DNA from: Gemmatimonadota bacterium
GTDB taxonomy: Bacteria > Gemmatimonadota > Gemmatimonadetes > Gemmatimonadales > GWC2-71-9
Reading direction: 5' to 3'
Assembly (NCBI GenBank): GCA_003223395.1
Contig: QHUZ01000021.1
Span: 1-64,000, forward strand
DNA length: 64,000 nucleotides
In this document: positions 40,965 to 56,092 of the stretch, piece after piece
How positions within the stretch are numbered: the stretch's first letter is position 1
Layout: each line of letters opens with the position of its first letter
The notes under the pieces: generated by a model
Databases searched by the model: none
The model's input: only the letters and a program-made list of their open reading frames with translations
What the model was told of the DNA's origin: nothing
Position numbers and translations under genes: made by a program

Positions 40965-41912
40965 TCAGCGTGCGGACGCCGTCGCGCTGATGGAAATCAG
41001 CGCCCCATCACGACCCAACGACTGTACCCCGACCACCGTGGCGATGGGGGCGTTCGCACTGAAGTACGCGGCGCCGGCCGTACGGATCGTCTCGAGATCT
41101 GCGGGCCGATAGTTCACGACGTAAATGGTGAGCGTCGTAACGTCGCGGAGCGACGCGCCCGCGCTCTGAAGGACCGAGCGGAGGTTCGCGAACGCGCGCT
41201 CGGCCTGCGCGCGCAGATCGGAGCCGACGAGCGTCCCCGTGCTGTCCACGCCGAGCTGGCCCGTGACGTAGACGGCTCGTCCAACGCGCACCGAAGGCGA
41301 GCCAACCGCCGGCGCCGCCACGCCCGGCGGTGTGGGGAGGGCCGTCTTGATCTCGGGAGCGCCCGCTCCGGGGGTGGCGAACTCCCCGCGGAAGCCCGCT
41401 TCGTCCCAGCGCCGCTGGTCTTCGCGGCGTTTTCTTTCGGTGGCCTGGTCCTGGTCGTCCCGCCACTTCTTATAAGCCTTGATCTGGTCGCCGTTCAGGA
41501 ACCGGCGCAGATCGCCCTCGAACCGGTCCTGCCGGTCTCGCAGCGTCTTGCCCAGGTCCTGCAGGTGCTCGGCGTAGAACGCCGCCGCGGCGCGATCGCC
41601 GTCGTCGAGCCGCTCGTTCATTTTCGCGATCGCCGCGTTCGCGCTGTCACGCTGCGGACGCGTCGCGACCATGAACGAGTCGTATGCCTGCGCGTACCGG
41701 GTGGATTGATCGGCGGACAGGCTGAGCATCGCGCGCGCGAGTGCCGTATCCAACGGCCCGACCAGCTCGACGCCGGGCAGCTTCGGCGCGGGCGGTCCAT
41801 AGCGGCCGCCCTGACTCATACTGCCTCGCCCATAGCCGCCCTGTCCGAATGCGGCGGTCGGCACCAGAAGCAAGGTTGCGGCGAGGAACGCGAATAACGA
41901 CCCGTACTTCAT
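40965..41912 (-). CDS. Exported fusion of a charged helical domain and a degenerate RidA-like domain
   Basis: 315 residues from the ATG at 41912, which follows GAGGAG and opens a signal peptide (MKYGSLFAFLAATLLLVPTA). Residues 25-165 are a charged helical region (TALARAMLSLSADQSTRYAQ, RFLNGDQIKAYKKWRDDQDQ) like Spy/heavy-metal-sensor chaperones. Residues about 195-315 are a RidA/YjgF-like fold (VGRAVYVTGQLGVDSTGTLV, AFANLRSVLQSAGASLRDVT). The active-site arginine of RidA enamine deaminases is replaced in PIATVVGVQ, and the terminal glutamate in ISISATA. It follows the SARP regulator gene by 58 bp and may share its transcript. Confidence 0.78.
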   Translation of the reverse strand: MKYGSLFAFLAATLLLVPTAAFGQGGYGRGSMSQGGRYGPPAPKLPGVELVGPLDTALARAMLSLSADQSTRYAQAYDSFMVATRPQRDSANAAIAKMNERLDDGDRAAAAFYAEHLQDLGKTLRDRQDRFEGDLRRFLNGDQIKAYKKWRDDQDQATERKRREDQRRWDEAGFRGEFATPGAGAPEIKTALPTPPGVAAPAVGSPSVRVGRAVYVTGQLGVDSTGTLVGSDLRAQAERAFANLRSVLQSAGASLRDVTTLTIYVVNYRPADLETIRTAGAAYFSANAPIATVVGVQSLGRDGALISISATASAR

Positions 41913-41970
41913 GGGGCTTCTCCTCAGAGGATAACGGGATGATACATGAGACGAGTGGTTCGTCGCACCG

Positions 41971-43869
41971 TTAGCATTTCTTGGCCAGGATACGCTGGCG
42001 TTCCCCCTCAGTGACCATGTCGCGCGCGACGACGTCACGCACGATGCGGGCGACGAACACGTAGCCCCGCGCCTCGGCGACGAGCCAGCGGCGCCATTCG
42101 AGCTCGTCGAGTGCGGCGTGCAACCCGTCTCCCTTCAGATCCGTGGCACAGCCGATTCGCGCTGCCGCGACGCGCTCGCCGAGAATCGCCGCGGCGACGA
42201 GAGCCTGCTGCGCCGGCTTCGACAGGCAGCGAAACCCTACGCGGATCGCTGCGACGATCGTGTCGGGCAGGTCGCCGGGGAAGGTGGAGTCGAGGGTTCG
42301 CAACGGATGCGGCCAGGCACCATTCGTGGCTTCGAGATCGAGACCCTGCGCCATCGCGTGAAGGATCTCCACGGCGAGGAGCGGCAGCCCACCGGAATCT
42401 GCCGCGATGCGCCGCAACAGACGATCCAGGGCCTCGCCTTTGTATGACGGTAGCGCCCACTGGATCAGCTGCCGGATCGCCGCGGTGTCCAATTTGCCCA
42501 GCGAAATCGCGGCACCCGTTAGATCTCGTCCGATGCGGGCCCGGAACTCCGCAAGCTTCGGTGGCGCGGGCTCCGGCGTCGTGGCGAGCACGATGAGCAC
42601 CGGGGCGCGCGCGAGGTCGCGGGCGAGTCGTTCGATGATGTGATATGACGTCGGATCGATCCACTGCGCGTCATCGAAGATCAACAGCTGCGGGTGTTCG
42701 GCGGCCGTCACGCGGAGCACTTCGCTGATCGCGGCGTCGAGCGCCCAGGGGCTGCCTGCCGGACGCCGTGGCGGAAACCGTTCGGCCCACTCGCCGGCCT
42801 GGGCGGCGAGCGTCGCGAGCGCGCCGGGATTCGCGCCGGCGACACCGGGCGCATCCGCCAACCCGCCGCACGCGAGTCCCAGGATCGCACTGGCGGGATG
42901 CTCGACGTCGGCCGCGACGGCGCGCGTACCGATCACGACTCCCCCGCCGACCGCGGCGCGCGTCGCGAGCTCCTCCAGGAAGCGCGTCTTGCCGCCACCG
43001 GATTCGGCTTCGATCACGAGGAGCGCCAGTCGGCCATCGGCTGCGCGACGCCACTGCGTGAGCGCGGTCTCCAGCTCGCGGTCTCGGCCGAGCAGCGGCG
43101 CGCGACGCCACGTCACGCTCCGCTGCGGCGATAGCGCTTCTTTCGGCAGGTGCCAGGCGCGCCCGCTGCGCAGCCGCTCGACCATCGCCTGGGTTTCGGG
43201 CTCGATGGTCACATCCCCGTCGCGGCGCGCGTCCTTCACGAACCGGTCGAGCAGCTGCAGGGCGCCTGCCCGATCACCTGCTCCCGCGAGACGCCGCAGG
43301 TGCCCGCGCAGGGCGCGCTGTGACACCGGGTCCATCTCGCGGGCCCGGCCAAGCGGCCCGTCCGCGCCGAGCTCGTCGCCCGCATCGAGTCGCTCCTCGG
43401 CGTGGCGCAGCAACGCGTCCATGGTGCGTCCGTGCCAGAACGATCGCTCGACCGTCAGCCAGTCCTCGAAGCCGGCCGCGTCTGGGACCTTGAAGCCCTC
43501 GAGGAACTCACCGTTGATCATGGGCGTCGTATGCGACCAGTCGCGTTGCTGCGCCAGTTTCTCGAACTCCTCAGTGTCGAGCTCCACGGCGCCGTCCAGC
43601 AGCTGCACGACGTCGCCCGTGGCCTTGAGCCGGTCCTCGCCCACGTATTGGCGCAGGACCCGGATGGCCTCACGCACGGATTGGCGCGCGGCTCCGTCGT
43701 CCTTGTCCGGCCAGAGCAAACCAATCAGCTGCTCTCGCGTGCACCGGCGCTTGGGCGAGCGGGCGAGGTAGAGCAGGAGCGCGATGTTCTTTTTCCAGAG
43801 CAGCTGGGAGGGGGCTTCCGCGCCATCCATCGTGACTTCGAGCGTTCCCAAAGTCTGGAAGCGAATCAT
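41971..43869 (-). CDS. SARP/BTAD-type transcriptional regulator with ATPase domain
   Basis: 632 residues; the ATG overlaps the kinase stop (ATGA). Residues 1-95 are an OmpR-like winged helix (KNIALLLYLARSPKRRCTRE, LIGLLWPDKDDGAARQSVRE). Residues 100-235 are the bacterial transcriptional activation domain (FEDWLTVERSFWHGRTMDAL). Residues 255-600 are an AAA/STAND-type ATPase, with Walker A ESGGGKT (lysine 294) and Walker B LLIFDDAQW. It resembles AfsR without the TPR tail. SARPs activate adjacent biosynthetic operons from heptamer direct repeats, and a candidate set lies at 46618-46660, upstream of its own operon and of the divergent synthase operon. Confidence 0.87.
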   Translation of the reverse strand: MIRFQTLGTLEVTMDGAEAPSQLLWKKNIALLLYLARSPKRRCTREQLIGLLWPDKDDGAARQSVREAIRVLRQYVGEDRLKATGDVVQLLDGAVELDTEEFEKLAQQRDWSHTTPMINGEFLEGFKVPDAAGFEDWLTVERSFWHGRTMDALLRHAEERLDAGDELGADGPLGRAREMDPVSQRALRGHLRRLAGAGDRAGALQLLDRFVKDARRDGDVTIEPETQAMVERLRSGRAWHLPKEALSPQRSVTWRRAPLLGRDRELETALTQWRRAADGRLALLVIEAESGGGKTRFLEELATRAAVGGGVVIGTRAVAADVEHPASAILGLACGGLADAPGVAGANPGALATLAAQAGEWAERFPPRRPAGSPWALDAAISEVLRVTAAEHPQLLIFDDAQWIDPTSYHIIERLARDLARAPVLIVLATTPEPAPPKLAEFRARIGRDLTGAAISLGKLDTAAIRQLIQWALPSYKGEALDRLLRRIAADSGGLPLLAVEILHAMAQGLDLEATNGAWPHPLRTLDSTFPGDLPDTIVAAIRVGFRCLSKPAQQALVAAAILGERVAAARIGCATDLKGDGLHAALDELEWRRWLVAEARGYVFVARIVRDVVARDMVTEGERQRILAKKC

Positions 43870-46607
43870 CGTGCCCCCAGCGCTGCGCAGTTCAATGCAA
43901 GCGTACGCGTCCGAGCGGTGTCCGCCCGCGCTCCATAGGGAGCCGGGGCATCAAACCAATGTCGCACGACCGTGGCGTAGGCGGTACAGGCTTCGCCGCG
44001 GTCGGCTCGCCGGATGCCGTCGAGGAGCCGCGCGAGGCGCCAGCTCGCCAATGTGCCGAACGCCCAGTCGACGTCTGCCGCCTGGGGCAGACCGGTTGGG
44101 ACGCCCACGAGGTCCAGATGCTCGTGCCAGACCAGTTCGCTCTTGGCGCCTTCGATGTCACGGATCTGGGCGCGCCAGACGGCGCTTTGGAAATGCACGA
44201 TCGCTCTGAAAAACGGATCTACCCATCGTGCGACGGAGTCCACGTCAATCGGATCGAGCTGTTTGAGCGCGGCGCCGGGGTGGCCGGCAGCCGCAAGCGA
44301 TTCGGCGACGAGCAGGGCCTTCAGCTCGCGGGATGCGACCGGACGCACCTGTTCGGGGTTCTCGAGGAGCGCGCTCATCCACACCGCGCGATCGCGCAGT
44401 TTTTCGTCTTTGCTCAGGGTCCACCGATGAAGGCCCTCGAGCGCGTCCGCCGTCGCGGCTTTTCCTCCCTCGAGGAATGCGAGCGCCGTCTGCAGTTCCG
44501 CCGTAAACAGATCGAGATTCGCCTCGGGCGACACGTTCGCGGCCTTGGCCGCCAGGTTACGCGTATCCTCCAGCCGGCCGAGCGCCAGCGAGCCCATTGT
44601 CTCGGCGATCAGCGCGGAGCGGCGTACGTCCCGCGAGTGGTTCTTCTGCAGCATCTGCCCTAATGCGATCGTACCTCGCGGCACGTCGAACGTCGGCAGC
44701 ATCCGCGGCCCTGCGCCCAGGATGGGGCTGCTCTGGGCCTCTGGCGAATTCACGATCTGTACGGTGACGCCTTGTGCCTCGCTGGGCGAGACGAAGCGCC
44801 ATTCGAACCCGAGGCGCAGCAGCGCCCGGAGCACGGCTGAGAAGGGGTCGGGCACGCCGCTATGAGCTTGCAGCGAATCCAAGGCACTTTCCGCGCTGGC
44901 AGAGTCTCCTTCCGCGGTTGCGACCCACGCGAGATGCTCCCATGCCGGTCCAAAGTCCGGCCGCAGCCGCGCCGCCCGTTCGAACGCGGGAATCGCTTCG
45001 GAGCGGCGGTGGCCCACGAGCGGCCCACGGTGGAACAGCTCATCGCCCAGCTGAAACCATCCCAGGAAAAACTGCGGGTCGCGTTGGGTCACGGCGCGCA
45101 GCGTGTCGAGTCGTGCGTTCAGGGGCAGTTGTGCGGCGCGAATCAGACTGGCGTACTCACGCGGCAAAGAATCCGCGTGAGCCAGAACTGTCCTCATGCG
45201 ATCGGGGTCCTCGTCGATGCCGAGCCAACGCTCCACCTCCGTCATCCGCCAGAGACAGATCCAGCAGCTCGGGTCGGTGGCGACAGCCTTCTTGTACGCG
45301 GCGTACGCCTCCTCCCACTCTGCCTCGCCGACGAGTTGCTCCGCCTCGAGGAACTGAGCCAGGCCTTCGGCCCTGTGGGGGAGGGCGCGCGGCGGCAGCG
45401 ATGCGGCGAGTGGGCTGCGATCGCGCCAGACGCCGAGCACGATCTGGTAACTGGTCGAGTCACTGAGCGTGGGCCAACTCTCGAGTGGGACGTGAAATTC
45501 GGACGTCGGAATCCCACCGGTGAGGCGCAGGGCGACGTCGCCGCCTGTCACCGTCATTCGCGCCTGAACGACGAGCGACGCCGAGTCTACGAAATCGATA
45601 TGGTCGCGCAGGTCGGAGCGGACAAGCCGACCCAGTGAATCGGCGACCGCGCCTTGGGCGGGCGGACCGACGTAGTCGATTGCGCCAAACGTCACTCGCG
45701 GGTTGCTCGAATTGGCGAGCGTCGCTGGAGGGGGGGCGGCGAGGTGGATCGCCACGATAACCGCGCCAATGATGGTCTCTCTTCCGCCGATTGCCTCGAT
45801 CAATCTGGCGAGATCGGGGCCCTGGGTTTGCTCCAAGGCTTTCCGAAATGACCTTGGGTCGGGCCAGCGCTCCGCGGGGTCTTTCGCCATCGCCTTCTGC
45901 AGCACGCGCGCGAGATCGTGCTGAATGCCCTTCCAATCGACGTGGTCGCCCTGCTCGTGGAACCGGCGCCCTGATACCGCCTCATACAGGACGACCCCGG
46001 TGGAGTAGATGTCGGTCCGCGGCGTGACCGGTTGTCCCTCGACCTGCTCGGGCGCCATGTATTCCGCAGTGCCATCGCGATTGTGTGGGTCGCTTTCGTC
46101 ATCTGAAGGCGGCCGCGCGATCCCAAAGTCGCCGAGTAACGCGCGATCCGACAACACAAACACGTTGCTCGGCTTGATGTCGCGGTGCACGAATCCCAGG
46201 CGATGCATCGCCTGAAGACCGTGGAGTAGGTCAATGCCGATCCCTAGGACTTCGTCGGACCGGAGCGGACCCGCTTCGAGACGACGGTCGAGCGTCGGCC
46301 CGTTGACAAACTCCATGATGTAGTACTGCAGGCCGTCATTATCGCCGGTGTCGTGGATGACGATGACGTTGGGGTGTTTGACGTCGGCGAGCGTCTGCGC
46401 CTCGCGCAGAAATGCTTCAGCGCCGTCGGCGGTGAAAAGCTCGGGCCGAAGGACTTTGATCGCGACGCCCCGGTTCAGCCGGACCTGGTGCGCGCGATAC
46501 ACGACGCCCATTCCCCCCTCACCGATCCGGTGCTCCACCCGATAATCGGGCGCCACCGCCTCTTGCAGACGTGTCTTGAGCGGATCGAACTGGGGATCGA
46601 TCGTCAT
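43866..46607 (-). CDS. Ser/Thr protein kinase with C-terminal TPR-like tail
   Basis: 913 residues from the ATG at 46607, preceded by GGAGG; longer in-frame starts would invade the divergent promoter region. The kinase domain spans 20-265: GEGGMGVVYRAH, lysine 51, HRDIKPSN (141-148), D160FG and GTAEYMAPEQV. A short hydrophobic segment (277-292) may be a membrane helix. The remaining 600 residues are helical and TPR-like (AEWEEAYAAYKKAVATDPSC, AIPAFERAARLRPDFGPAWE). It is coupled to the SARP gene, the order expected of an AfsK/AfsR-type pair in which the kinase phosphorylates the regulator. That relation is inferred. Confidence 0.9.
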   Translation of the reverse strand: MTIDPQFDPLKTRLQEAVAPDYRVEHRIGEGGMGVVYRAHQVRLNRGVAIKVLRPELFTADGAEAFLREAQTLADVKHPNVIVIHDTGDNDGLQYYIMEFVNGPTLDRRLEAGPLRSDEVLGIGIDLLHGLQAMHRLGFVHRDIKPSNVFVLSDRALLGDFGIARPPSDDESDPHNRDGTAEYMAPEQVEGQPVTPRTDIYSTGVVLYEAVSGRRFHEQGDHVDWKGIQHDLARVLQKAMAKDPAERWPDPRSFRKALEQTQGPDLARLIEAIGGRETIIGAVIVAIHLAAPPPATLANSSNPRVTFGAIDYVGPPAQGAVADSLGRLVRSDLRDHIDFVDSASLVVQARMTVTGGDVALRLTGGIPTSEFHVPLESWPTLSDSTSYQIVLGVWRDRSPLAASLPPRALPHRAEGLAQFLEAEQLVGEAEWEEAYAAYKKAVATDPSCWICLWRMTEVERWLGIDEDPDRMRTVLAHADSLPREYASLIRAAQLPLNARLDTLRAVTQRDPQFFLGWFQLGDELFHRGPLVGHRRSEAIPAFERAARLRPDFGPAWEHLAWVATAEGDSASAESALDSLQAHSGVPDPFSAVLRALLRLGFEWRFVSPSEAQGVTVQIVNSPEAQSSPILGAGPRMLPTFDVPRGTIALGQMLQKNHSRDVRRSALIAETMGSLALGRLEDTRNLAAKAANVSPEANLDLFTAELQTALAFLEGGKAATADALEGLHRWTLSKDEKLRDRAVWMSALLENPEQVRPVASRELKALLVAESLAAAGHPGAALKQLDPIDVDSVARWVDPFFRAIVHFQSAVWRAQIRDIEGAKSELVWHEHLDLVGVPTGLPQAADVDWAFGTLASWRLARLLDGIRRADRGEACTAYATVVRHWFDAPAPYGARADTARTRTLALNCAALGAR

Positions 46608-46617
46608 TCCTGCCTCC

Positions 46618-46660
46618 GGGCTTGAACTTACGGCTTGACGCCCGCTTGCGCCCCGCTCGC
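46618..46660. promoter_or_regulatory. Heptamer direct repeats, candidate SARP-binding sites
   Basis: On the plus strand GGGCTTG (46618), CGGCTTG (46631), CCGCTTG (46642) and CCGCTCG (46653) repeat with periods of 13, 11 and 11 bp. On the minus strand the register reads GCGAGCG, GCAAGCG, TCAAGCC and TCAAGCC, which match the TCGAGCG-type SARP heptamer at five or six of seven positions. They fill the 65-bp gap between the kinase-SARP operon and the synthase operon. The region is GC-rich, so chance similarity must be considered. Confidence 0.5.
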
Positions 46661-46666
46661 TACCGT
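46661..46666 (+). promoter_or_regulatory. Candidate leaderless -10 element for the synthase operon
   Basis: TACCGT keeps the TAnnnT core, lies directly after the heptamer repeats and ends six bases before the ATG at 46673. There is no -35 hexamer, as expected of an activator-dependent promoter. Confidence 0.35.
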
Positions 46667-46672
46667 CCCCCC

Positions 46673-48091
46673 ATGACGAGCCCCCGTCTGCAGGCGCAGC
46701 CGCTCGACTACCACTTCCTCGACGTCGCCGAGGGTGCGCAGCCGTTCCTGCGGAAGCTGTTCGAGAGCTTCGGCTTCCGGGCACTCCGCCTCTGGGTCGA
46801 TGCCGGTGTGTCGGCTGAATCGTTCGATCGCCAGGGGTGTGACGGACTGGTGACGGCGCTCGGCGAATGCGACGGCCGCACGATCGCACTTGCGTGGAGC
46901 GACTTCCGCGTCAAAGCGTCCTCGTACGGGCGGTGCAACTCGCGACGCTTTGCTGCCTTCTTACGTCAGCTGCGCGAGTCGCGAGACGCCATCCCGCTCA
47001 TCTACGTGGTCAATTCCGCGGGCCTCAGTCTCATGGAAGGCCGGAGCGCCTTCTCGGACGCGTTCGCGCTGTGGCCGGAATTGCTCCGGTATGCGGAACA
47101 GGGGCTATTGCTGACCTGCGCCGTCGGCAAATGTCTCGGACTGGCGCCGCTGCTGTACGGGTTGGGCCACTACCGCATCGCCGTGGCCCGTGGCACGCAC
47201 ATCAACCTGACGGGCCCCGAAGTCATCCGGCTGTTCTTCGGCACCGGTGTGGACTTCGAGACCCGGGCCGCCGCCGAGCGGTGTCTCGAGTGCCACGATC
47301 TCGTGCACGAGATCGTGCCGTCGCTCGAGGACGCGCTGCGGCTGTGCCGCGCTCTGATCGCGCGGCGGCCGGGCGCGGGTCCATCCCCCGAGCTGGGCGC
47401 GCGTACCGGCCCGCTCCTGCTCCAGATGCTGGACGGACCCCCGCGCGAAGTCGTGCCGGGCTGGTGCCCCCGCGTCCGGCTGTTCATCGGCACGCATCGC
47501 GGCAAGCCACTCGGCCTCTTCGTGAACCCGCTCGAGCGATCGAACAACATGATCACGGTGCGCACGCTGGAGAAATACGGAGCGGGGCTCGACCTCTTCC
47601 GCGCGCTGGGCCTGCCGATCGTGAGCGTGCTCGATTCGCCGGGGATCGATCCGCGCTGCGAACAAAGCGACGCGAACAACATCCGCCGCATTCTCGCGGT
47701 CGGTGAGAAGATCATCCGCTATCCGCATGGCGCGATGGGCGTCGTGACCGGCCGCTGTTTCGGCGGCGCGACGGCGCTCTCGATTCCCAAAGTGTTCGGC
47801 GGGACGCGGACGATCGCGCTGCCCGGCGCGCAGTTCGGCGTCATGCACGAGCGCATCGTCGAGCAGGTCTTGAGCGGCAGCCCGCGCCTGCTCGCGGAAT
47901 GGCGCACCGCTGCGGCGGCCCAGGACGCATCGTTCAGCGATCTCCTGGCGCAAGGTGCACTCGATGCCGTCGTGCAGCCGGAAGACCTGTCTGCAGAGCT
48001 CGATCGCTTCCTCGAGTGCGAGGGCGACGGTCCGCGGCTGGTGGGGGCACGGCGGCGTCGCAGCGCGCCACACATGGTGCTGGCGCGATGA
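46673..48091 (+). CDS. Divergent carboxyltransferase-domain protein (acyl-CoA carboxylase beta-like)
   Basis: 472 residues from the ATG at 46673. Two crotonase-like halves are visible. The N-half (GRTIALAWSDFRVKASSYGR, VVNSAGLSLMEGRSAFSDAF, INLTGPEVIRLFFGTGVDFE) and the C-half (MITVRTLEKYGAGLDLFRAL, VSVLDSPGIDPRCEQSDANN, GAMGVVTGRCFGGATALS) follow propionyl-/acetyl-CoA carboxylase beta subunits. The DSGGAR-type oxyanion motif of the N-half has become NSAGLS, and no biotin carboxylase or biotin carrier gene lies nearby. It may carboxylate or decarboxylate an acyl-CoA to prime the adjacent KASIII enzymes. First gene of a seven-gene coupled operon. Confidence 0.75.
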   Translation: MTSPRLQAQPLDYHFLDVAEGAQPFLRKLFESFGFRALRLWVDAGVSAESFDRQGCDGLVTALGECDGRTIALAWSDFRVKASSYGRCNSRRFAAFLRQLRESRDAIPLIYVVNSAGLSLMEGRSAFSDAFALWPELLRYAEQGLLLTCAVGKCLGLAPLLYGLGHYRIAVARGTHINLTGPEVIRLFFGTGVDFETRAAAERCLECHDLVHEIVPSLEDALRLCRALIARRPGAGPSPELGARTGPLLLQMLDGPPREVVPGWCPRVRLFIGTHRGKPLGLFVNPLERSNNMITVRTLEKYGAGLDLFRALGLPIVSVLDSPGIDPRCEQSDANNIRRILAVGEKIIRYPHGAMGVVTGRCFGGATALSIPKVFGGTRTIALPGAQFGVMHERIVEQVLSGSPRLLAEWRTAAAAQDASFSDLLAQGALDAVVQPEDLSAELDRFLECEGDGPRLVGARRRRSAPHMVLAR

Positions 48092-49092
48092 ACGCGCGCA
48101 TCGCGGGCGTCGGCCACTATCTGCCGGGACAGCCGATCACCAATGAGGAGCTGATCGCGCGCCACCGGCTGCGCATCAAACCGTACTTCATCCGCAATCA
48201 CGTGGGTGCCGAAACGCGGCACTTCGCGGCTCCGGACCAGGCGACGTCTGATCTGGCCGTCGAAGCGGCGGCGCGGGCGATCGACGCGAGCGGCGTTCCG
48301 GCGACGGAGATCCAGCGCATCCTGCTCGCGACCGTGTCGGGCGACTATCCGACCCCCGCGACCGCGTGCATCGTGCAGCGCAAGCTCGGCCTGCGGGGGC
48401 GCGCGGCGATCGACGTCGTTGGCGCGTGCTCGGGATTCCTGCAGGCGCTCGACCTGGGCGCGCGCTGCGTGGCAACCGGCGAAGGCCCAGTGCTCGTGAT
48501 CGGCGCCGACGTGCGGTCGCGCCAGCTCAACTTCAGCGACCTCCGCACTGCCTTCCTGTATGGTGACGGGGCAGGGGCGGTCGTGCTCACCGCGGGCCCG
48601 GACGGCGCCGAGATCCGGCATTCGATTCTCACGGCTGACGGCGAGGGTGCCGAAGCCGTGTACATCCCCGCGGGAGGTTCCCGCGAGCCGATCACGCAAG
48701 CGGGACTCCTGAGTCAGCGCAATTGCATCACCATGACCGACGGGCGGCGGGTGGCGGACGCGGCGCGCGCCGGATTTCGCCATCTCGCCGACCGACTCGT
48801 CGCCGAGACATGCGTGCCCGCGTGCGACGTCGGGTTCGTCTGCCTCCATCAGCCGAATCTCTTCCTCGTCCGCCAAATCCTGTGCGACCTCGCGATCGCC
48901 GAGGAGCGCACGTGGATCAATTTCCCGGCCTATGGCAACACGACCTCGGCGTCAGTCCCGATCGCGCTGTCGGAGGCGGTCGCCGCCGGGAGAATCGCTG
49001 CGGACTCGTGGGTCTGGCTCGGCGCCGTGGGCGCCGGGTTCGCCGGCGCGATTCAGCTCGTGCGTTGGGGCACCGTCCGGAGCGCCGCATGA
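48088..49092 (+). CDS. Beta-ketoacyl synthase III-like enzyme 1
   Basis: 334 residues, ATGA overlap with the carboxyltransferase gene. The thiolase fold has the complete KASIII triad: cysteine 114 in VVGACSGFLQAL, histidine 254 in CLHQPNLFLV and asparagine 284 in AYGNTTSASVP, with the glycine-rich end WLGAVGAGFAGAIQL. Such enzymes condense an acyl-CoA with a malonyl unit, or acylate other acceptors. Its operon position and a second homologue downstream argue for specialised rather than housekeeping fatty-acid synthesis. No acyl carrier protein is encoded in the operon. Confidence 0.88.
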   Translation: MNARIAGVGHYLPGQPITNEELIARHRLRIKPYFIRNHVGAETRHFAAPDQATSDLAVEAAARAIDASGVPATEIQRILLATVSGDYPTPATACIVQRKLGLRGRAAIDVVGACSGFLQALDLGARCVATGEGPVLVIGADVRSRQLNFSDLRTAFLYGDGAGAVVLTAGPDGAEIRHSILTADGEGAEAVYIPAGGSREPITQAGLLSQRNCITMTDGRRVADAARAGFRHLADRLVAETCVPACDVGFVCLHQPNLFLVRQILCDLAIAEERTWINFPAYGNTTSASVPIALSEAVAAGRIAADSWVWLGAVGAGFAGAIQLVRWGTVRSAA

Positions 49093-49793
49093 TCCTGGTC
49101 ACCGGCGGGAGCGAAGGCATCGGGTTCGCGTGCGCGCGCGAGCTGCTGGACCGGACGACGGTCTCCGTGTTGGTCACCGGCCGCTCGCAATGCAAGCTCG
49201 CCGGCGCCCGCGAGGCTCTGAACGGTCCGGCACGTGCGCGCTTAGCCACGCTCGCGTGCGATCAGGCGAGCGCGAGCGACGTCGCGACGCTCGTGTCGCT
49301 CATCGAGCGAACGGAGCGCATCGACGCGGCGATCCTCACGGTCGGCGTGAATCCGGCGTATGCCGAAGGACCGCTGCGCGTACATGCGCTGTCCCTGGCG
49401 ACCATCGAGCAGACCATCCGCACCAATTGCACCCACGCGCTGCAGTTGACGGCCGCGCTGCTCGACCGCTTTCGGCGCCAGCGCGCCGGAGTCCTGGTGT
49501 GGATCGGCTCGCAGGCGCAGGCGGTCGGCCTTCCGGGCGCGGGCCTCTACTGCGCAACCAAATCCTTTCTGTCCGGCCTCGCGCGCACCGCGCACCACGA
49601 GTACGCGGCGCGCGGCATCCGCGTCCACCTCGCCCATCCGGGGATCGTCCGCACGCCGCGCACCGCGGCAGTCGCCGACGAATTTGCGCGACGGCACAGC
49701 CTGCACGTTGCTGAAGCTCCCCAGGTGGCTCGACAAGTCGTGGACCTGCTGCTCGACGGCGATCAGGCGGTCGTGGAGGTGAACCTGTGTTGA
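49089..49793 (+). CDS. Short-chain dehydrogenase/reductase
   Basis: 234 residues, ATGA overlap. It has the cofactor motif TGGSEGIG (5-12), asparagine 113, serine 141 and the Y154-x3-K158 pair, so the full SDR tetrad is present. GRS after the second strand (residues 31-33) favours NADPH, though weakly. In this operon it probably reduces the beta-keto product of a KASIII condensation to a hydroxyl. Substrate not determined. Confidence 0.9.
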   Translation: MILVTGGSEGIGFACARELLDRTTVSVLVTGRSQCKLAGAREALNGPARARLATLACDQASASDVATLVSLIERTERIDAAILTVGVNPAYAEGPLRVHALSLATIEQTIRTNCTHALQLTAALLDRFRRQRAGVLVWIGSQAQAVGLPGAGLYCATKSFLSGLARTAHHEYAARGIRVHLAHPGIVRTPRTAAVADEFARRHSLHVAEAPQVARQVVDLLLDGDQAVVEVNLC

Positions 49794-50563
49794 TCCTCGA
49801 TCTGCTCTGGTGGATCGGATGGGCGTGGTTTGCCGCGTGGATCGCGCTGCCGCTGGTCGCGGTGCCGCTGCTTGGCATCGTTCCCGGTTTCGTCGTATGG
49901 GCCGTGCTCGCGCCGTGGTCGGCGCTGCTCGGCATGGCGACGCTGCACCGCGTCCTGCCCGACAGCGAGCCCGGCACGTTCCGTCTCCCGGGAGATGGCG
50001 GCGGCGTGCGCTGGGCCTTGAAGGCGTGGGCTCCGTCGCTGTATCTCACGCTCTTCCAGCCGCTGTGCTTCACCAGTCGCTTCTTCCAGCTGTTCGCCCT
50101 GCGTGTGTTCGGCGCGCGCCTCGCACCGGGAGCCTGGCTCACGTCGCGGACGATCGTACGCGAGCCCCATCACGTACGCATCGGCTTGCGGAGCCTGATC
50201 GGCGAGTATGCGCACCTGATCTGCTCCTATCAGCCGCGCCCGGGTCTGCTCATCGTCGCGGCGATCACCGTCGGGGACGACTCGCTGGTGGGCGGCCATA
50301 CCCATCTCGCGCCGGGCGTCACCATCGGATCGCGGTGTGTCATCGAGCACGCCGTCGCGATCGGTGCGCGGACTCATATCGGCGATGATTCCCGCATCGG
50401 CGCCGGCACGACGATCTATAACGCTGCCCGGATCGGGCGCGGCGTGTTCGTGGGGAAGAATTGCCTGATCCCAAGCGGTGCGATCATCGCGGACGGCACA
50501 CGCGTGCCCGACGGCACCGTCTGGACCGCCGCGAGCAGGCGCGAGCTCGAGGCCGCCTCGTGA
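49787..50563 (+). CDS. Membrane-anchored left-handed beta-helix (hexapeptide) acyltransferase
   Basis: 258 residues. The GTG at 49787 has GGAGGT six bases upstream and overlaps the SDR gene by 7 bp. Two hydrophobic helices come first (LLWWIGWAWFAAWIALPLVA, VPGFVVWAVLAPWSALLGMA). From about 125 to 245, hexapeptide repeats follow ([LIV]-G-x-x-x-x), for example IGLRSLIGEYAHLI, VTIGSRCVIEHAVAIGARTH and IGDDSRIGAGTTIYNAARIG. Such enzymes form trimers and O- or N-acylate sugars, lipids or amino compounds. Anchoring at the membrane suits a lipid substrate. Confidence 0.83.
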   Translation: MLILDLLWWIGWAWFAAWIALPLVAVPLLGIVPGFVVWAVLAPWSALLGMATLHRVLPDSEPGTFRLPGDGGGVRWALKAWAPSLYLTLFQPLCFTSRFFQLFALRVFGARLAPGAWLTSRTIVREPHHVRIGLRSLIGEYAHLICSYQPRPGLLIVAAITVGDDSLVGGHTHLAPGVTIGSRCVIEHAVAIGARTHIGDDSRIGAGTTIYNAARIGRGVFVGKNCLIPSGAIIADGTRVPDGTVWTAASRRELEAAS

Positions 50564-52191
50564 TCGCCGCGTGGGTGTTCCGGCTGGCGTTGCAGCGGTT
50601 CCGCACCGCATGCGGGGATCCGCTGGCGGCGCAGGCAGCGCAGCTGCGCCGAATTCTCAGGGCCGCCGCGCGCAGCGAATTCGGCGTGCGCCATCAATTC
50701 ACGCGCATCGCGCGACTCGGTGATCCCCGCGAGATGATCCGGGCGTTCCAGACGGCCGTGCCCGTACGGTCCTACAAGGAGATGCGGGACGACTTGGACG
50801 CCGTGTACGCCGGTCGCTGGGAGATGCTGTGCCCGAGCCGGCCACTCCGATTCGCGATGACGGCCGGATCCACCGGGCACTACAAGTACATCCCCGTAAC
50901 CCGGGAGTACCACCGCGAGGTCGGCCGCAGCGCGATGATCTTCAACGGCGCGCTGGAGGCATGCTTTCCAGCGACGCGCAGCCTCAAGACGCAGTTTCTC
51001 GTCGGGTCCGCGGAGGGCGGTCGCTCGCCCGCGGGCATCCCGCAAGGGTTCGCGTCTGGCTTCAACTATCAGAACCTGCCGCGGTTCGTGCGGCGCCGGT
51101 TTGTCGCGCCGTATTGGATCTTCACGATCGACGATCCGGACGAGCGTGCGTACGCCGCCGGCCGCATTCTCATGGCCGAGCCACGGCTCGGCGTGCTGAG
51201 CGCGATTTCGCCGGTCAACCTCATCAACCTGCGGCAAGCGCTGGACCGCAACGCGGAACGCCTCATCGCCGATGTGGCGGGCGGCACGCTGACCACTCGG
51301 GGTTCGGCGGCGGTCGCCGGCGCGTGGTCCAGTCGCCGCGACCCGCGCCGCGCTCGTGCTTTGGACGATGCGTGGCGGACAAACGGCACGCTTCCCACCA
51401 GCCAGCTGTTTCCGGAGTTGCGCGTGCTGGTCTCGTGGCAGGGTGGCAACATGAGCTACTACCTCGATGATGCGCGTCGTGCGTTCGGGATCGACCAGAC
51501 CTTCGAGTTTCCGATCTCGGCGAGCGAGGGAGTCTTCGCGATCCCGCTGCACGGGAACCGTCCGGGTGGCGCGCTGGCGGTGACCTCGCATTTCCTGGAA
51601 TTCATTTCCGAAGGCGGTGGTACGCCGCTGCGCGCCGACGAGCTGGAACTGGGGCGTGAATACCGCATTGTCGTGACGAACGGCGGCGGGCTGTATCGCT
51701 ACGACATGGAGGACATCGTCCGTGTCACGTCGAGCTTTCGCGCGACGCCCGTGATCGAGTTCGTCAGCAAGCAGGACCGCCAGATCTCGGTGAGCAATGA
51801 GCGGCTCACGGAGCTGGATGTAACGCGCGCGATGCAGGAAGCCAGCCGCGAACGGCCCCGGCGGTTCCCGGAATTCCTGTTCGTGCCGTGCTCCGATCGC
51901 CGGTATCGGGTGGTGTTGGATGCGGCGGCGTGGCCCGGCGACGACCTCACCACTTTCGCGCAGGCGATCGAGCGTGAACTGCGCGAGGCGGCGAAGGGCT
52001 ACGACTTCGAGCGGGAAGATGCGCTCCTGTCGCCGCTGCAGCTGATCGTCACGGCGCCCGACGAACTCCGCAACTGGTTGCGCCGCCGCGAGCAGGACGC
52101 GCTGCCCAACGCGCAGATCAAGCCTTTGCACCTCACCAACGAGTTCAACGCGCACCAGGCCTTCACCGCGGTCGCCACGTATGCGGCTTGA
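50560..52191 (+). CDS. GH3-like acyl-adenylating enzyme (acyl-acid amido synthetase family)
   Basis: 543 residues; the GTG overlaps the previous stop (GTGA). GH3 hallmarks are the ATP loop TAGSTGHYKYIPVT (101-114), FPISASEGVFAIPL and the adenylate-binding NGGGLYRYDMEDIVRV (near 375-390), with a mobile C-terminal domain beyond about 430. Plant GH3 enzymes activate a carboxylic acid as acyl-AMP and join it to an amino acid, and bacterial homologues are mostly unstudied. Here it could conjugate the finished acyl chain to an amine. The length is close to plant members. Confidence 0.87.
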   Translation: MIAAWVFRLALQRFRTACGDPLAAQAAQLRRILRAAARSEFGVRHQFTRIARLGDPREMIRAFQTAVPVRSYKEMRDDLDAVYAGRWEMLCPSRPLRFAMTAGSTGHYKYIPVTREYHREVGRSAMIFNGALEACFPATRSLKTQFLVGSAEGGRSPAGIPQGFASGFNYQNLPRFVRRRFVAPYWIFTIDDPDERAYAAGRILMAEPRLGVLSAISPVNLINLRQALDRNAERLIADVAGGTLTTRGSAAVAGAWSSRRDPRRARALDDAWRTNGTLPTSQLFPELRVLVSWQGGNMSYYLDDARRAFGIDQTFEFPISASEGVFAIPLHGNRPGGALAVTSHFLEFISEGGGTPLRADELELGREYRIVVTNGGGLYRYDMEDIVRVTSSFRATPVIEFVSKQDRQISVSNERLTELDVTRAMQEASRERPRRFPEFLFVPCSDRRYRVVLDAAAWPGDDLTTFAQAIERELREAAKGYDFEREDALLSPLQLIVTAPDELRNWLRRREQDALPNAQIKPLHLTNEFNAHQAFTAVATYAA

Positions 52192-53209
52192 GGCACCAGC
52201 CGTCCGCATCGTAGACGTCGAAACCTGCGACTTCGGGATGATGTCCGCGTACGACACGGCCACCGTCCTCCGCGCGGCCTGTCCGGACGAGGCAGAGCGC
52301 TACCTCACGTCGTCGGCGTCGCGGCAGTTGATCGCCCAACTCGGCGTTGCGCGGCGCTATCTGACGCAGATTCCTGGGGCGCCGCCGCACCCTGCGCGCC
52401 TCAATGCGCTCGACCTGGCGCGCTCGGCGGTGGCGCGGCTCCAGGCGCGACGCGCGCATGATCTCCGCAGTCTCGATGCGCTGATCTTTGTCAGCACATC
52501 AAATCCCAATCCGTGCAACAGCCAGGCGGCGCTGCTTGCGGCGCAGTGCGGGATCAGGGCTTCGTGCATGGATCTCAAGGCGGGGTGCAGCGGCGGCGTG
52601 CTCGGCCTCATGCAGGCCGCGCTCCTGCTGCAAGCCGGATGTAAGCGTGTGCTGGTCGTCATGGCGGAGAACCTCTCGCAGTTCACGCCACCGGACGATC
52701 TCCGCATGCTGCTGACGGTAGGGGACGGCGCGGCCTGCGTACTGCTCGAGCGGACGCCGAACGGATCCGGGTTCCTGTCGATGATTCACGGCACCGAGCC
52801 TGCACTGGCCGGCTCGATGACCGTGTCGTCGCGATTCCCGCCGGTTGATGCGAATGCGCGGTACCAGTACGAGTTCCACGACGTCAACCGGGCCGCCGAG
52901 TTCGTGCGCGCCCGTTGGCGCACGCTGTTTTGCGAGAGTCTCGCCTCCGCCGGCGTCTGCCGGGAAGGTCTCGGGTACGCACTGTTCCATCAGACACACG
53001 CCGCGCAGATGGACGACCTCATGACGGACCTGCGGCTCGATCCCGCGGCCGTCCCGGTGGTCGTGCGCGACTACGGCAACATGGGCACGCCCACATTCGC
53101 CGTCGCCCTGGCGGGGATCCACTCGAGACTTCTGCCGGGCGACCGAATCCTGTTGCAAGCGGTCGGCGGCGGCGTGAGCTGGTGCGCGATCGTCGCGGAG
53201 CACCAGTGA
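52181..53209 (+). CDS. Beta-ketoacyl synthase III-like enzyme 2
   Basis: 342 residues; the ATG lies 11 bp inside the GH3 gene. The triad is cysteine 136 in LKAGCSGGVLGL, histidine 270 in LFHQTHAAQM and asparagine 300 in DYGNMGTPTF, ending in LQAVGGGVSWCAIV. It differs widely from the first KASIII-like protein, so the pair probably performs distinct steps, such as condensation and ester or amide-forming acyl transfer. It is closer in feel to the 3-oxoacyl-ACP synthases of secondary metabolism, but this is inference. Confidence 0.86.
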   Translation: MRLEAPAVRIVDVETCDFGMMSAYDTATVLRAACPDEAERYLTSSASRQLIAQLGVARRYLTQIPGAPPHPARLNALDLARSAVARLQARRAHDLRSLDALIFVSTSNPNPCNSQAALLAAQCGIRASCMDLKAGCSGGVLGLMQAALLLQAGCKRVLVVMAENLSQFTPPDDLRMLLTVGDGAACVLLERTPNGSGFLSMIHGTEPALAGSMTVSSRFPPVDANARYQYEFHDVNRAAEFVRARWRTLFCESLASAGVCREGLGYALFHQTHAAQMDDLMTDLRLDPAAVPVVVRDYGNMGTPTFAVALAGIHSRLLPGDRILLQAVGGGVSWCAIVAEHQ

Positions 53210-55524
53210 AGCTCGCGCAGCTGGTCGTACGCCGGCGCGGCTGGATCGCGGTGCTGTGGGTGGCCGCCGCGGTCGTGTTCGTCCCACGCGCGAGCCGGCT
53301 GCCGAACGTCCTCCAGACCAGTGCGCGCGTCGAGGGAAGCGAATCCGCCGCCGTCGAGCGGCTGCTCCAGGGGCCACTCGCATCGGCCTACGCGCGGTAT
53401 GCAGTCCTCGTCATCGGTGGTGTGCCGTCCCCGGCAACGGCGGAAGGAGCGGCGGCGCTGCGGCGCGTGATTCAACCTGTGGCCGCTGCGCCGCAGGTCG
53501 CGGGGGTGTTTTCCTATCTGGACCGAGCGGACAGCCTGCTGGTGAGTCCTGCTGGTCGCGGCACGCTCGTGATCGTGGGACTCGCCGCCGACAGCGCCAC
53601 GAAACCCGACCGCATCATTCCGCATTTGCGCAGTCTCACCGAGCGGCTGGCCGGGGCGTTGCGCCGGGATTATCCCGACATCGTGCTGCGCTGGACTGGT
53701 GAGACGCCACTCAACGTCGATCTGCGACGGACCAGCGCCGCCGATGTGCAGCACGCTGAGCGCCGGGCGCTGCCGGTGACGGCGGCGCTGTTAGTGCTCG
53801 CCTTCGGCGCGCTGGCGGCGGCGCTCGTGCCCGTGGTGGCGGGTGCGGTGGCGATCGCGATCGCGTTGGGTGCGGCCGCCGTCGCGGCCGGCATCTGGCC
53901 GCTGTCGATCCTCCTGCAGAGCGTCGTCCCGATGCTCGGCCTCGGGTTGGGTATCGATTACGCGCTGCTGATGGTGAGCCGGTTCCGCGACGCACTCGGT
54001 GAGGGCCGAGAGCCGAGCGCCGCGGCCGCAGAAGCGGCGCAGCATGCCGGCCACACGATTCTGCTCTCGGCGGCGACGGTCGCCCTGGGTTTCCTGGTGC
54101 TGCTCACCGTCCCGCTCAACGAGATGCGCGCGATCGCGGCGGCTGGCCTTCTCGTCGTCGTCACGTCGGCGCTGCTCGCGACGACGCTGCTGCCCGGCGT
54201 CCTCGCGACGCTCGGGGCGCGCATCGATTGGGGCCGAGTGCGGCGCGCGACGTTCCGGCGGACTTCGGTCGAGTGGTGGCGGCGCTGGGGTCGCTGGGTC
54301 ACTGGCCATCCGTGGGTTGCCCTCGTCGCCGGCGGCCTGCCGCTCGTGGTCCTGGCGCTGCAGGCGATCGGGCTCCAGTCGGGGCTGCCGCGCGGCGACT
54401 GGCTGCCGGCGTCGATGGAATCCGCGCGCGCGTTGAGCGATCTGCGAAGGATGGGGCGGAGCGGGATGATCCAAACCCTGCGGATCGTCGTGACCATGCC
54501 GGAGCACGTCTCGGTCCGGCAGCCCGCGGGCTGGGATGCCGTGGCTCGGTACACGCAAACGTTGCAGGCGGATCCTCGGGTCGCGCGCGTGCGATCCATC
54601 GTGACCGTGCTCGAGGCCGCCGGGATGAGCCGCGCAAAACTCGCGAGCACTCCGGGCTTCACGACACGGCGCTTGACCGCCGGCTTGCTCAGCCGGGACG
54701 GGCGACTCGCACTCGTCGAGGTGATGCCGGGCGAGTCGGTCGCACCGAACGAGGTGCTCGCGTTCGTACGCGAGCTACGCGCCATGGGTACGCGGCGGCT
54801 TGGGATCGGCGGCGCTTCGCTCACGGTCGGCGGGCTGCCGGCATTCAATACCGACTATCAGGACGCCGTGGCCGGTCGCTTCTGGCACATCGTCGCGCTC
54901 GTCGTGGGCGGGACCATGTTGGCGCTGTTCGTCGGGTTCCGATCGGTCTTGGTTCCGCTCAAAGCGGTGGTCCTGAACCTCCTGTCGGTCGGCGCAGCAT
55001 TCGGCGCGCTGAAACTGGTCTTTCAGGACGGCCACGGCGCGCGCCTGCTGGGCGTGACACAGCCCCTGGGCGCGGTGTTCTCGTCATTGCCCGTGGTGGT
55101 GTTCTGCATCGTGTTCGGCCTGAGCATGGACTATGAGGTGTTTCTCATGACGCGCATTCGCGAAGCCCGCAACGCCGGCATGAGCGATCACGACGCCATC
55201 GTCGAGGGCCTGGGAAGTACGGCGCAGGTCATCACGAACGCCGCGGCGATCATGCTGGTCGTGTTCGCGGCCTTCACTCTCGGTGACGTGCTGCTGACCA
55301 AACTGCTGGGCTTCGCGCTCGCCGTGGCGGTGCTGCTCGACGCCACGATCGTCCGAATGATCGTGGGGCCGGCGCTGTTACAGCTGGCGGGAAAGTGGAA
55401 CTGGTGGCCGGCGGGGAACCGCCTACCGGAGTCGCGGGAGCTTGGGGGGCTTCGGCCCGTGGCGGACGGCGCCCCGCACGGCTACGTACTCGAGCGGCGT
55501 CCCGGTCCGCGCACATCGCAGTAG
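53206..55524 (+). CDS. MMPL/RND-family exporter
   Basis: 772 residues; the GTG overlaps the previous stop (GTGA). It has twelve predicted helices with two large extracytoplasmic loops after helices 1 and 7. The proton-relay regions typical of MmpL transporters are present in both halves: LGLGIDYALLMVSRFRDALG and IVFGLSMDYEVFLMTRIREA. MmpL and hopanoid transporters move lipids and lipid-like metabolites out of the inner membrane. As the last gene it is the likely exporter of the operon's acyl product. The 3' end overlaps the convergent gene by 102 bp. Confidence 0.92.
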   Translation: MKLAQLVVRRRGWIAVLWVAAAVVFVPRASRLPNVLQTSARVEGSESAAVERLLQGPLASAYARYAVLVIGGVPSPATAEGAAALRRVIQPVAAAPQVAGVFSYLDRADSLLVSPAGRGTLVIVGLAADSATKPDRIIPHLRSLTERLAGALRRDYPDIVLRWTGETPLNVDLRRTSAADVQHAERRALPVTAALLVLAFGALAAALVPVVAGAVAIAIALGAAAVAAGIWPLSILLQSVVPMLGLGLGIDYALLMVSRFRDALGEGREPSAAAAEAAQHAGHTILLSAATVALGFLVLLTVPLNEMRAIAAAGLLVVVTSALLATTLLPGVLATLGARIDWGRVRRATFRRTSVEWWRRWGRWVTGHPWVALVAGGLPLVVLALQAIGLQSGLPRGDWLPASMESARALSDLRRMGRSGMIQTLRIVVTMPEHVSVRQPAGWDAVARYTQTLQADPRVARVRSIVTVLEAAGMSRAKLASTPGFTTRRLTAGLLSRDGRLALVEVMPGESVAPNEVLAFVRELRAMGTRRLGIGGASLTVGGLPAFNTDYQDAVAGRFWHIVALVVGGTMLALFVGFRSVLVPLKAVVLNLLSVGAAFGALKLVFQDGHGARLLGVTQPLGAVFSSLPVVVFCIVFGLSMDYEVFLMTRIREARNAGMSDHDAIVEGLGSTAQVITNAAAIMLVVFAAFTLGDVLLTKLLGFALAVAVLLDATIVRMIVGPALLQLAGKWNWWPAGNRLPESRELGGLRPVADGAPHGYVLERRPGPRTSQ

Positions 55525-56007
55525 CAGCCCGCCGCGGCTCATGTCGCCACGGCCGGCGAACGTGGCTGGGAAGAGCAGGCGATCACCGAAGACGTCCAGG
55601 AGCGGGCCGACGTACTTGTCCGTCGCGACGCTTCCCAGCAACACGACACGGTCGTCTGTCGCGAGTCCGCGGTGCAGCGCGGTCGCATCCCGAACCAGGG
55701 GTTCCCGAAACGCAGGCTCGGCTTCGTCCACCGGTACGGTCGCCATCTTCCGCAAATCGTCGACCCGAATCAGCACATCGGCCGGGAGGAGGCCGCGCCC
55801 CGGCGCGATTACGTACGCCCGCCCAAACCGCGTGGCGTACGCGAGCTTCCCGCGGAAATAGAGGCTGCTCATGAAGGTGAACACTTCGCCGAGCGGCGCG
55901 CCGCCGTTGGCAAGGCGCGCGGTCAGCGGGCTCGTCTGACTTTTGAGCAACAGCTGCGCGCGTGTGCCGGCGCAGCTGGCGGGGGACAGCAGAAATACTG
56001 TCAGCAC
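55423..56007 (-). CDS. Conserved-looking hypothetical protein, convergent overlap with the MMPL gene
   Basis: 194 residues from a GTG at 56007, chosen because GGAG stands seven bases upstream and the preceding 27-codon ORF stops one base before it. The sequence has the texture of a soluble conserved protein (LTARLANGGAPLGEVFTFMS, SLYFRGKLAYATRFGRAYVI, DRLLFPATFAGRGDMSRGGL, EYVAVRGAVRHGPKPPKLP). I do not recognise the family. The last 34 codons are antisense to the end of the MMPL gene. Confidence 0.65.
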   Translation of the reverse strand: MLTVFLLSPASCAGTRAQLLLKSQTSPLTARLANGGAPLGEVFTFMSSLYFRGKLAYATRFGRAYVIAPGRGLLPADVLIRVDDLRKMATVPVDEAEPAFREPLVRDATALHRGLATDDRVVLLGSVATDKYVGPLLDVFGDRLLFPATFAGRGDMSRGGLLLRCARTGTPLEYVAVRGAVRHGPKPPKLPRLR

Positions 56008-56008
56008 A

Positions 56009-56092
56009 CTACCGCTCCATGTACCGTCGCAAGAAAAACATTGCCGCGCCAAAGATCACAATTATCAGGATGATCCAGATGATCCGGGGCAT
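56009..56092 (-). CDS. 27-residue membrane micropeptide
   Basis: The ORF reads MPRIIWIILIIVIFGAAMFF, then LRRYMER and a TAG stop: one membrane helix with a basic end. A strong Shine-Dalgarno (AGGAGGA) lies seven bases before the ATG. The stop is one base from the GTG of the downstream hypothetical gene, whose ribosome-binding site sits inside the last codons. This points to translational coupling. Function unknown. Confidence 0.7.
   Translation of the reverse strand: MPRIIWIILIIVIFGAAMFFLRRYMER

Follow-up and report, generated by a model that had tools for sequence, protein, structure and literature searches.

Winged-helix response regulators of the PhoP/PhoB type read 11-bp direct repeats near the -35, and differ from the regulator described here in having a receiver domain and a histidine kinase partner. 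EmbR, whose kinase partner is PknH, carries an FHA domain in place of the AAA_16 ATPase of the present regulator. In common the two have a DNA-binding half of the SARP type and its link to signalling by a Ser/Thr kinase (EmbR of Mycobacterium; 2fez, 2ff4). Also among the closest described systems is that of AfsR from Streptomyces coelicolor (8hvr, 8k60; PMC10936776), which likewise combines a winged helix with BTAD and ATPase domains and has a Ser/Thr kinase gene in its neighbourhood. At the afsS promoter the AfsR box extends from -40 to -19 and the -35 from -38 to -33; T-38 is contacted, and T-27 matches it in the second repeat (PMC10936776). The promoter described below resembles that of afsS in its two 11-bp direct repeats overlapping the -35, its extended spacer and its poor -10 (CACTGT in afsS, which is also NAnnnT), whereas its half-site is CTTGACG and that of the AfsR box is CGTT(T/C)ATCG. 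Phosphorylation of the S. coelicolor AfsR changed its activity only slightly and raised its ATPase activity (PMC10936776). PimR and other SARP-LAL regulators also read heptamers with 4-nt spacers, in up to three copies, but the PimR operator does not overlap the -35 and has the consensus CGGCAAG, and the C-terminal half of PimR is related to guanylate cyclases and LAL regulators (PMC5930380).

SARPs have recently been reviewed as exclusively actinobacterial (PMC10972967), and in the literature searched nothing relevant was found that joins SARP or BTAD with Gemmatimonadota. Here we analyse a stretch of 64,000 nucleotides (the window; G000:C88:1-64000) from a Gemmatimonadota genome of 3.4 Mb, G000, in which a Ser/Thr kinase and a SARP-like regulator lie divergent from a biosynthetic operon. 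The explanation that we consider probable, on the basis of sequence comparisons, is a non-actinobacterial SARP regulon in which the kinase-coupled SARP is the likely activator of an acquired operon.

Results and discussion

A coupled kinase-SARP pair

The pair occupies the minus strand of the window as follows.

41971-43869, minus strand: SARP-like regulator of 631 aa, with winged helix (Trans_reg_C), BTAD and AAA_16 ATPase (Pfam, AlphaFold2, PDB folds)
43866-46607, minus strand: Ser/Thr protein kinase of 913 aa with a C-terminal TPR-like region (Pkinase, 148.7 bits)

In the regulator, Pfam places an OmpR-type winged helix at the N-terminus (Trans_reg_C, 28.7 bits against a cut-off of 26.2), followed by a BTAD domain that is marginal by sequence, just above its cut-off (22.2 against 22.1 bits), and an AAA_16 ATPase (67.4 bits). 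A single-sequence search of the DNA-binding half against the PDB was weak (EmbR, E=0.037), while a 29-member profile matched EmbR at 7e-9 and AfsR at 1e-4, the AfsR match spanning residues 5-235. The AlphaFold2 model (pLDDT 88.5, about 95 in the winged-helix region) found its best PDB folds in the AfsR initiation complexes 8k60 and 8hvr, with a target-normalised TM of 0.72-0.73 to the AfsR SARP unit and with EmbR also among the top matches. The profile and the fold search settled the question left by the weak single-sequence result: in structure the regulator is a SARP, as the initial annotation had proposed.

The 4-bp overlap of the two genes, ATGA at 43866-43869, which had been noticed at the outset as a sign of coupling, is confirmed, and is kept in most of the orthologous pairs for which both genes were found. 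With this conservation, co-production and functional pairing of kinase and SARP are likely. The kinase starts at the ATG at 46607, so that the longer reading frame to 46889 is not needed, and its catalytic motifs (HRDIKPSN, DFG, APE, VAIK) are all present; together with the conserved coupling, these intact motifs make it plausible that the kinase phosphorylates the regulator.

The description of the locus as a compact AfsK-AfsR pair did not survive inspection of the domain content. The AfsR type comprises a SARP, a NOD ATPase and a TPR domain, and Pfam finds no C-terminal TPR domain in this 631-aa regulator from the Gemmatimonadota; the AfsK equivalog NF053615 scores 76.3 bits, through the kinase domain only, against a whole-protein cut-off of 1300, and the C-terminus of the kinase is weakly TPR-like. 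We have therefore not filed the pair as a member of the AfsK-AfsR group, whose kinase gene, unlike the overlapping one here, lies two genes away from the regulator. By analogy, the best reading is that the pair would nevertheless work as AfsK-AfsR does. On the other side of the regulator lies a RidA-domain gene (40965-42038) whose longest reading frame runs into the regulator gene at its 3' end, and which adjoins the regulator in G003 and G005 too.

An operon inserted beside the pair

The operon runs on the plus strand from 46673, divergent from the pair.

46673-48091, plus strand: first operon gene, carboxyltransferase-like (Carboxyl_trans, 60.2 bits)
47899-55524, plus strand: rest of the operon (Pfam/NCBIfam)
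55423-56052, minus strand: conserved gene on the other side of the insertion, directly preceding the kinase in G001, G003 and G008

After the carboxyltransferase-like gene come a KAS III (with its real start near 48088), an SDR-like protein, a hexapeptide acyltransferase, a GH3-type/OlsH-like ligase, a second KAS III and an MMPL/MmpL3-like exporter, which together make a lipid- or polyketide-like operon. At high identity the first gene was found only in G020 among the 288 genomes of the order, and in the GTDB contig collection only in Gemmatimonadetes bacterium SZUA-544, which is that same genome and belongs to the same family as the window. There the operon has the same gene order with 65-77% identity, except for the SDR-like gene (39%). 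A broken homologue of the first gene, a fragment, is present in G423. The SARP, by contrast, occurs in 74 of 102 family genomes, far more often than the nearly unique operon, and the pair is thus not tied to this operon in particular. In the best reading the operon was acquired horizontally and carried a SARP-type promoter.

The insertion itself is evident from comparison with operon-free relatives of the same genus (G001, G003, and G008 in a shortened version), where the kinase directly follows a homologue of the 55423-56052 gene on the same strand. In G000 this gene now lies 9 kb from the kinase, with the operon exactly between them. The 3' end of the MMPL gene overlaps it antiparallel, and the C-terminus of the exporter is chimeric relative to that of G020. 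The exporter takes its last ~35 residues (55405-55524) from the antisense strand of the conserved neighbour, an insertion scar.

The gap between the kinase and the carboxyltransferase-like gene (46608-46672) is exactly 65 bp, and holds plus-strand heptamers at 46619 and 46632 (both GGCTTGA), 46643 (CGCTTGC) and 46654 (CGCTCGC), with periods of 13, 11 and 11, the last abutted by the TAnnnT hexamer TACCGT at 46661-46666; the initial annotation had all these positions right. When the gap is shuffled by dinucleotides, three heptamers as similar as these come to stand at exactly 11 bp in 0.6% of cases; the figure is 0.1% for random 65-bp windows of the genome and 0.3% for upstream windows. With the spacing left free, an array of four repeats appears in 2% of shuffles. 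On its own this rarity is suggestive only, and cannot carry the claim because dozens of gaps are scanned in such a reading. Our sample of the genome's own sequence was 464 kb in pieces; matches to the 19-mer with 3 mismatches showed no excess over the control level, and a search for leaderless promoters, by TAnnnT at -12, yielded no more than a weak rise between -16 and -11.

Two features divide the gap.

46610-46632, minus strand: retained ancestral kinase leader, with the Shine-Dalgarno sequence GGAGG and the kinase-proximal heptamer (46619-46625)
46634-46666, plus strand: predicted SARP-type promoter of the operon, CTTGACGCCCGCTTGCGCCCCGCTCGCTACCGT (identity to G020, promoter grammar)

The leader is identical at 20 of 23 positions to the kinase leader of the operon-free G001, at an equal distance from the ATG, and none of 300 shuffles did as well; by itself, the match to the G003 leader lacked significance (9 of 300 shuffles). 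Within it, TAAGTT preserves as a fossil the stop codon of the former upstream gene, TAA being the stop of that gene in G001. Positions 46634-46652, on the other hand, agree at 17 of 19 with the promoter of the same operon in G020. With a G001-like leader reaching to 46632 and a G020-like promoter from 46634, the junction falls between the heptamers at 46619 and 46632. By these comparisons the operon was inserted beside a resident kinase-SARP pair, and the array in the gap is a mosaic. We thus reject a single array of four equivalent heptamers, as first described: the kinase-proximal one belongs to the ancestral leader, adjoins the Shine-Dalgarno sequence and predates the operon, the others arrived with the operon, and the outermost, CGCTCGC, is not conserved in G020.

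A predicted SARP-type promoter that travels with the operon

The predicted operon promoter has half-sites at 46634-46640 and 46645-46651, a -35 (TTGACG) at 46635-46640 and a -10 (TACCGT) at 46661-46666. We describe promoters of this class by the grammar CTTGAC-N5-CTTGAC-N11-A-N3-T, that is, 11-bp direct repeats, a 20-bp spacer and an NAnnnT -10. The operon promoter agrees with it at 12 of 14 positions, and is the only site of at least 11 in 84 kb of this contig (sites of at least 12/14 are expected at 0.0002 per 65-bp gap), although its second half-site, CTTGCGC, is degenerate. The first gene has no Shine-Dalgarno sequence and its ATG lies 7 nt downstream of the -10, so that its transcript is possibly leaderless. 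If the transcript does start at the ATG, the -35 would fall at -38 to -33 and the -10 at -12 to -7, the register of afsS; TTNA occupies -38 to -35 as in afsS, and the positions T-38 and T-27 are both kept.

Sites also stand before the operon in G020 (13/14) and, 89 bp upstream of the broken first-gene homologue, in G423 (14/14). Across these three genomes, then, the promoter travels with the operon. In G423:C1 (L085), of family f5, the operator is thus perfect, the first-gene copy is broken and a close orthologue of this SARP is missing, a state that suggests transfer and subsequent decay.

The site might instead serve the kinase-SARP operon itself. SARP genes are often autoregulated, and the heptamers lie just upstream of the kinase. 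This we regard as very improbable: the -10 and the 20-bp spacing fit the plus strand only, the kinase-side heptamer abuts the Shine-Dalgarno sequence, and operon-free relatives that hold the pair show no such array upstream of the kinase.

A promoter class tied to the SARP family

The core CTTGACGCNNGCTTG was found 41 times in the family and its reversed pattern about 10 times; several of the 41 sites are immediately beside SARP orthologues. The search pattern left the NAnnnT bases unspecified. Even so, of the 33 sites read out, 26 have NAnnnT at an offset of exactly 20 bp from the first TTGACG, and no other offset has more than 3. Near kinase-SARP loci, doubled CTTGACG (at least 13/14) was found 8 times at period 11 and 0-2 times at each of 16 other periods; at period 11 it was absent from 400 kb of background. 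The full grammar yields 169 sites in the 102 family genomes, and its reversed control one match in the whole 288-genome order. It is also found in several f3 genomes and, across the phylum, in f7 and f9 and, among the f5 genomes sampled, in G423 alone, with no control match.

An ordinary housekeeping promoter, TTGACG with TACCGT and a repeat by coincidence, is only slightly less improbable than autoregulation. In its favour are the good -35 that TTGACG provides, the weakness of the second half-site, and the fact that CTTGA-N6-CTTG alone is hardly enriched in G000 (11 vs 6). Yet a spacer of 20 bp is a long way from 17, both half-sites persist in the G020 promoter, and the full grammar has no match in the 179 genomes of the sister family f2 and next to none in several other families.

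Conserved heptamers with drifting spacers, which had been predicted for a genuine operator, were seen at the genus level in orthologous target promoters. Before the nuclease-lipoprotein genes of four genomes of the genus, 13 of 14 heptamer positions are unchanged, as against 0 of 4 in the 4-bp spacer and 3 of 60 in the 60 bp upstream. Since these sites were found by pattern, 12 of the 14 bases were to some extent bound to agree, which does not apply to the spacer drift and the orthology. In G000 itself (C61:10314-10346; L282) a perfect SARP-type promoter precedes an endonuclease/exonuclease/phosphatase-type lipoprotein; an ECF sigma gene and a FecR-like gene lie immediately upstream, and related genes in three other genomes of the genus are also preceded by sites.

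Predicted targets are mostly exported, 36 of 61 being signal-peptide-like by a crude rule against 94 of 304 in the background. They include endonuclease/exonuclease/phosphatase domains (6 of 49 scanned) and epimerase domains (4 of 49), and in the family epimerases, PKD/beta-helix and other exported proteins. With targets so varied, the promoter code is not limited to biosynthetic clusters. Some genomes, namely G031, G101, G014 and G029, have 6-8 full-grammar sites.

The class is linked to this SARP family in its occurrence and in its position. Sites are present in 56 of 74 SARP-positive and 7 of 28 SARP-negative family genomes (P=6e-6), and within the genus in 6 of 6 and 0 of 4, respectively (P=0.005), P values that overstate independence in that the genomes are related. 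A SARP-family gene is no more than 6 kb away at 21 of the 150 listed sites, where a rough calculation ignoring relatedness expects about 0.7, and some lie 11-67 bp behind the SARP gene. In G017, G076, G088 and G091 the site is oriented away from the kinase, the topology of the window, and the SARP profile, run over 37 stretches that surround sites, matched proteins of this SARP family only. Mere coincidence of repeats and SARP, which the inserted operon, the mosaic gap and the lack of an orthologue in G020 had brought into consideration, was dropped once sites were found beside SARP genes. Of the original proposal of a SARP-type operator before the operon, then, the operator class and its tie to the SARP family stand, and the four-heptamer array does not. 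In G008:C64 (L044) there is a natural deletion, in which the SARP and the kinase domain are gone and the TPR part of the kinase is kept.

A more serious alternative, still unlikely in our judgement, is that this is a real SARP- or OmpR/PhoB-type site read by another winged-helix regulator, with the kinase-SARP pair as an accidental neighbour. The promoter is conserved in G020 and G423, whose best SARP matches are 31-32% identical over the DNA-binding half and which both lack a close orthologue, so that another SARP could read it there; operon and SARP are not co-inherited, most relatives holding the SARP without the operon; about ten other BTAD matches exist in G000; seven SARP-negative family genomes still have sites; and PhoP-type regulators also read 11-bp repeats, PhoP sharing the AfsR box in Streptomyces (PMC10972967). 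Of the two genomes without a close orthologue, G020 is only 56% complete, and in G423 (99% complete) the first operon gene is broken. Against the alternative, the sites co-occur and co-localise specifically with this SARP family, and the genomes G002, G004, G008 and G009, which lack this SARP, have no full-grammar site, though G008 retains other BTAD matches. On this balance it is probably this SARP, and not a paralogue, that acts on the operon.

Proposed mechanism and implications

For the kinase-coupled SARP as activator of the operon, we propose the following mechanism. The resident, translationally coupled kinase-SARP pair would encode a signal-responsive activator. A SARP dimer would lie side by side on the two 11-bp CTTGACG-type repeats covering the -35 and the 20-bp spacer, and would hold region 4 of the RNA polymerase sigma factor over the weak NAnnnT -10, as AfsR does at afsS. 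Bound to its half-sites in this way, the dimer may substitute for -35 recognition and activate a promoter with a weak -10 and a long spacer. The insertion placed an operon with this type of promoter between the kinase and the gene that once preceded it, and the operon now stands under the resident regulator or, at the least, beside it. Binding and activation are inferred here, as is phosphorylation; the kinase probably modulates the ATPase half of the regulator.

A structurally clear SARP family is thus widespread in the Gemmatimonadota, contrary to the view of SARPs as restricted to the actinobacteria (PMC10972967). Its promoter code is predictable base by base, in half-site, spacing and -10, so that the 'sigma adaptation' mechanism of AfsR becomes testable in a distant phylum, and it gives a handle on the kinase-regulator pair. 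More tentatively, and with somewhat less than even confidence, we suggest that several families of Gemmatimonadota may have SARP regulons in which a coupled kinase-SARP module reads CTTGACG-N4-CTTGACG-N9-NANNNT before mainly exported proteins, and that mobile biosynthetic operons may carry this code to plug into the resident regulator. With the code, silent clusters could be located and turned on in a phylum of which very few members have been cultured.
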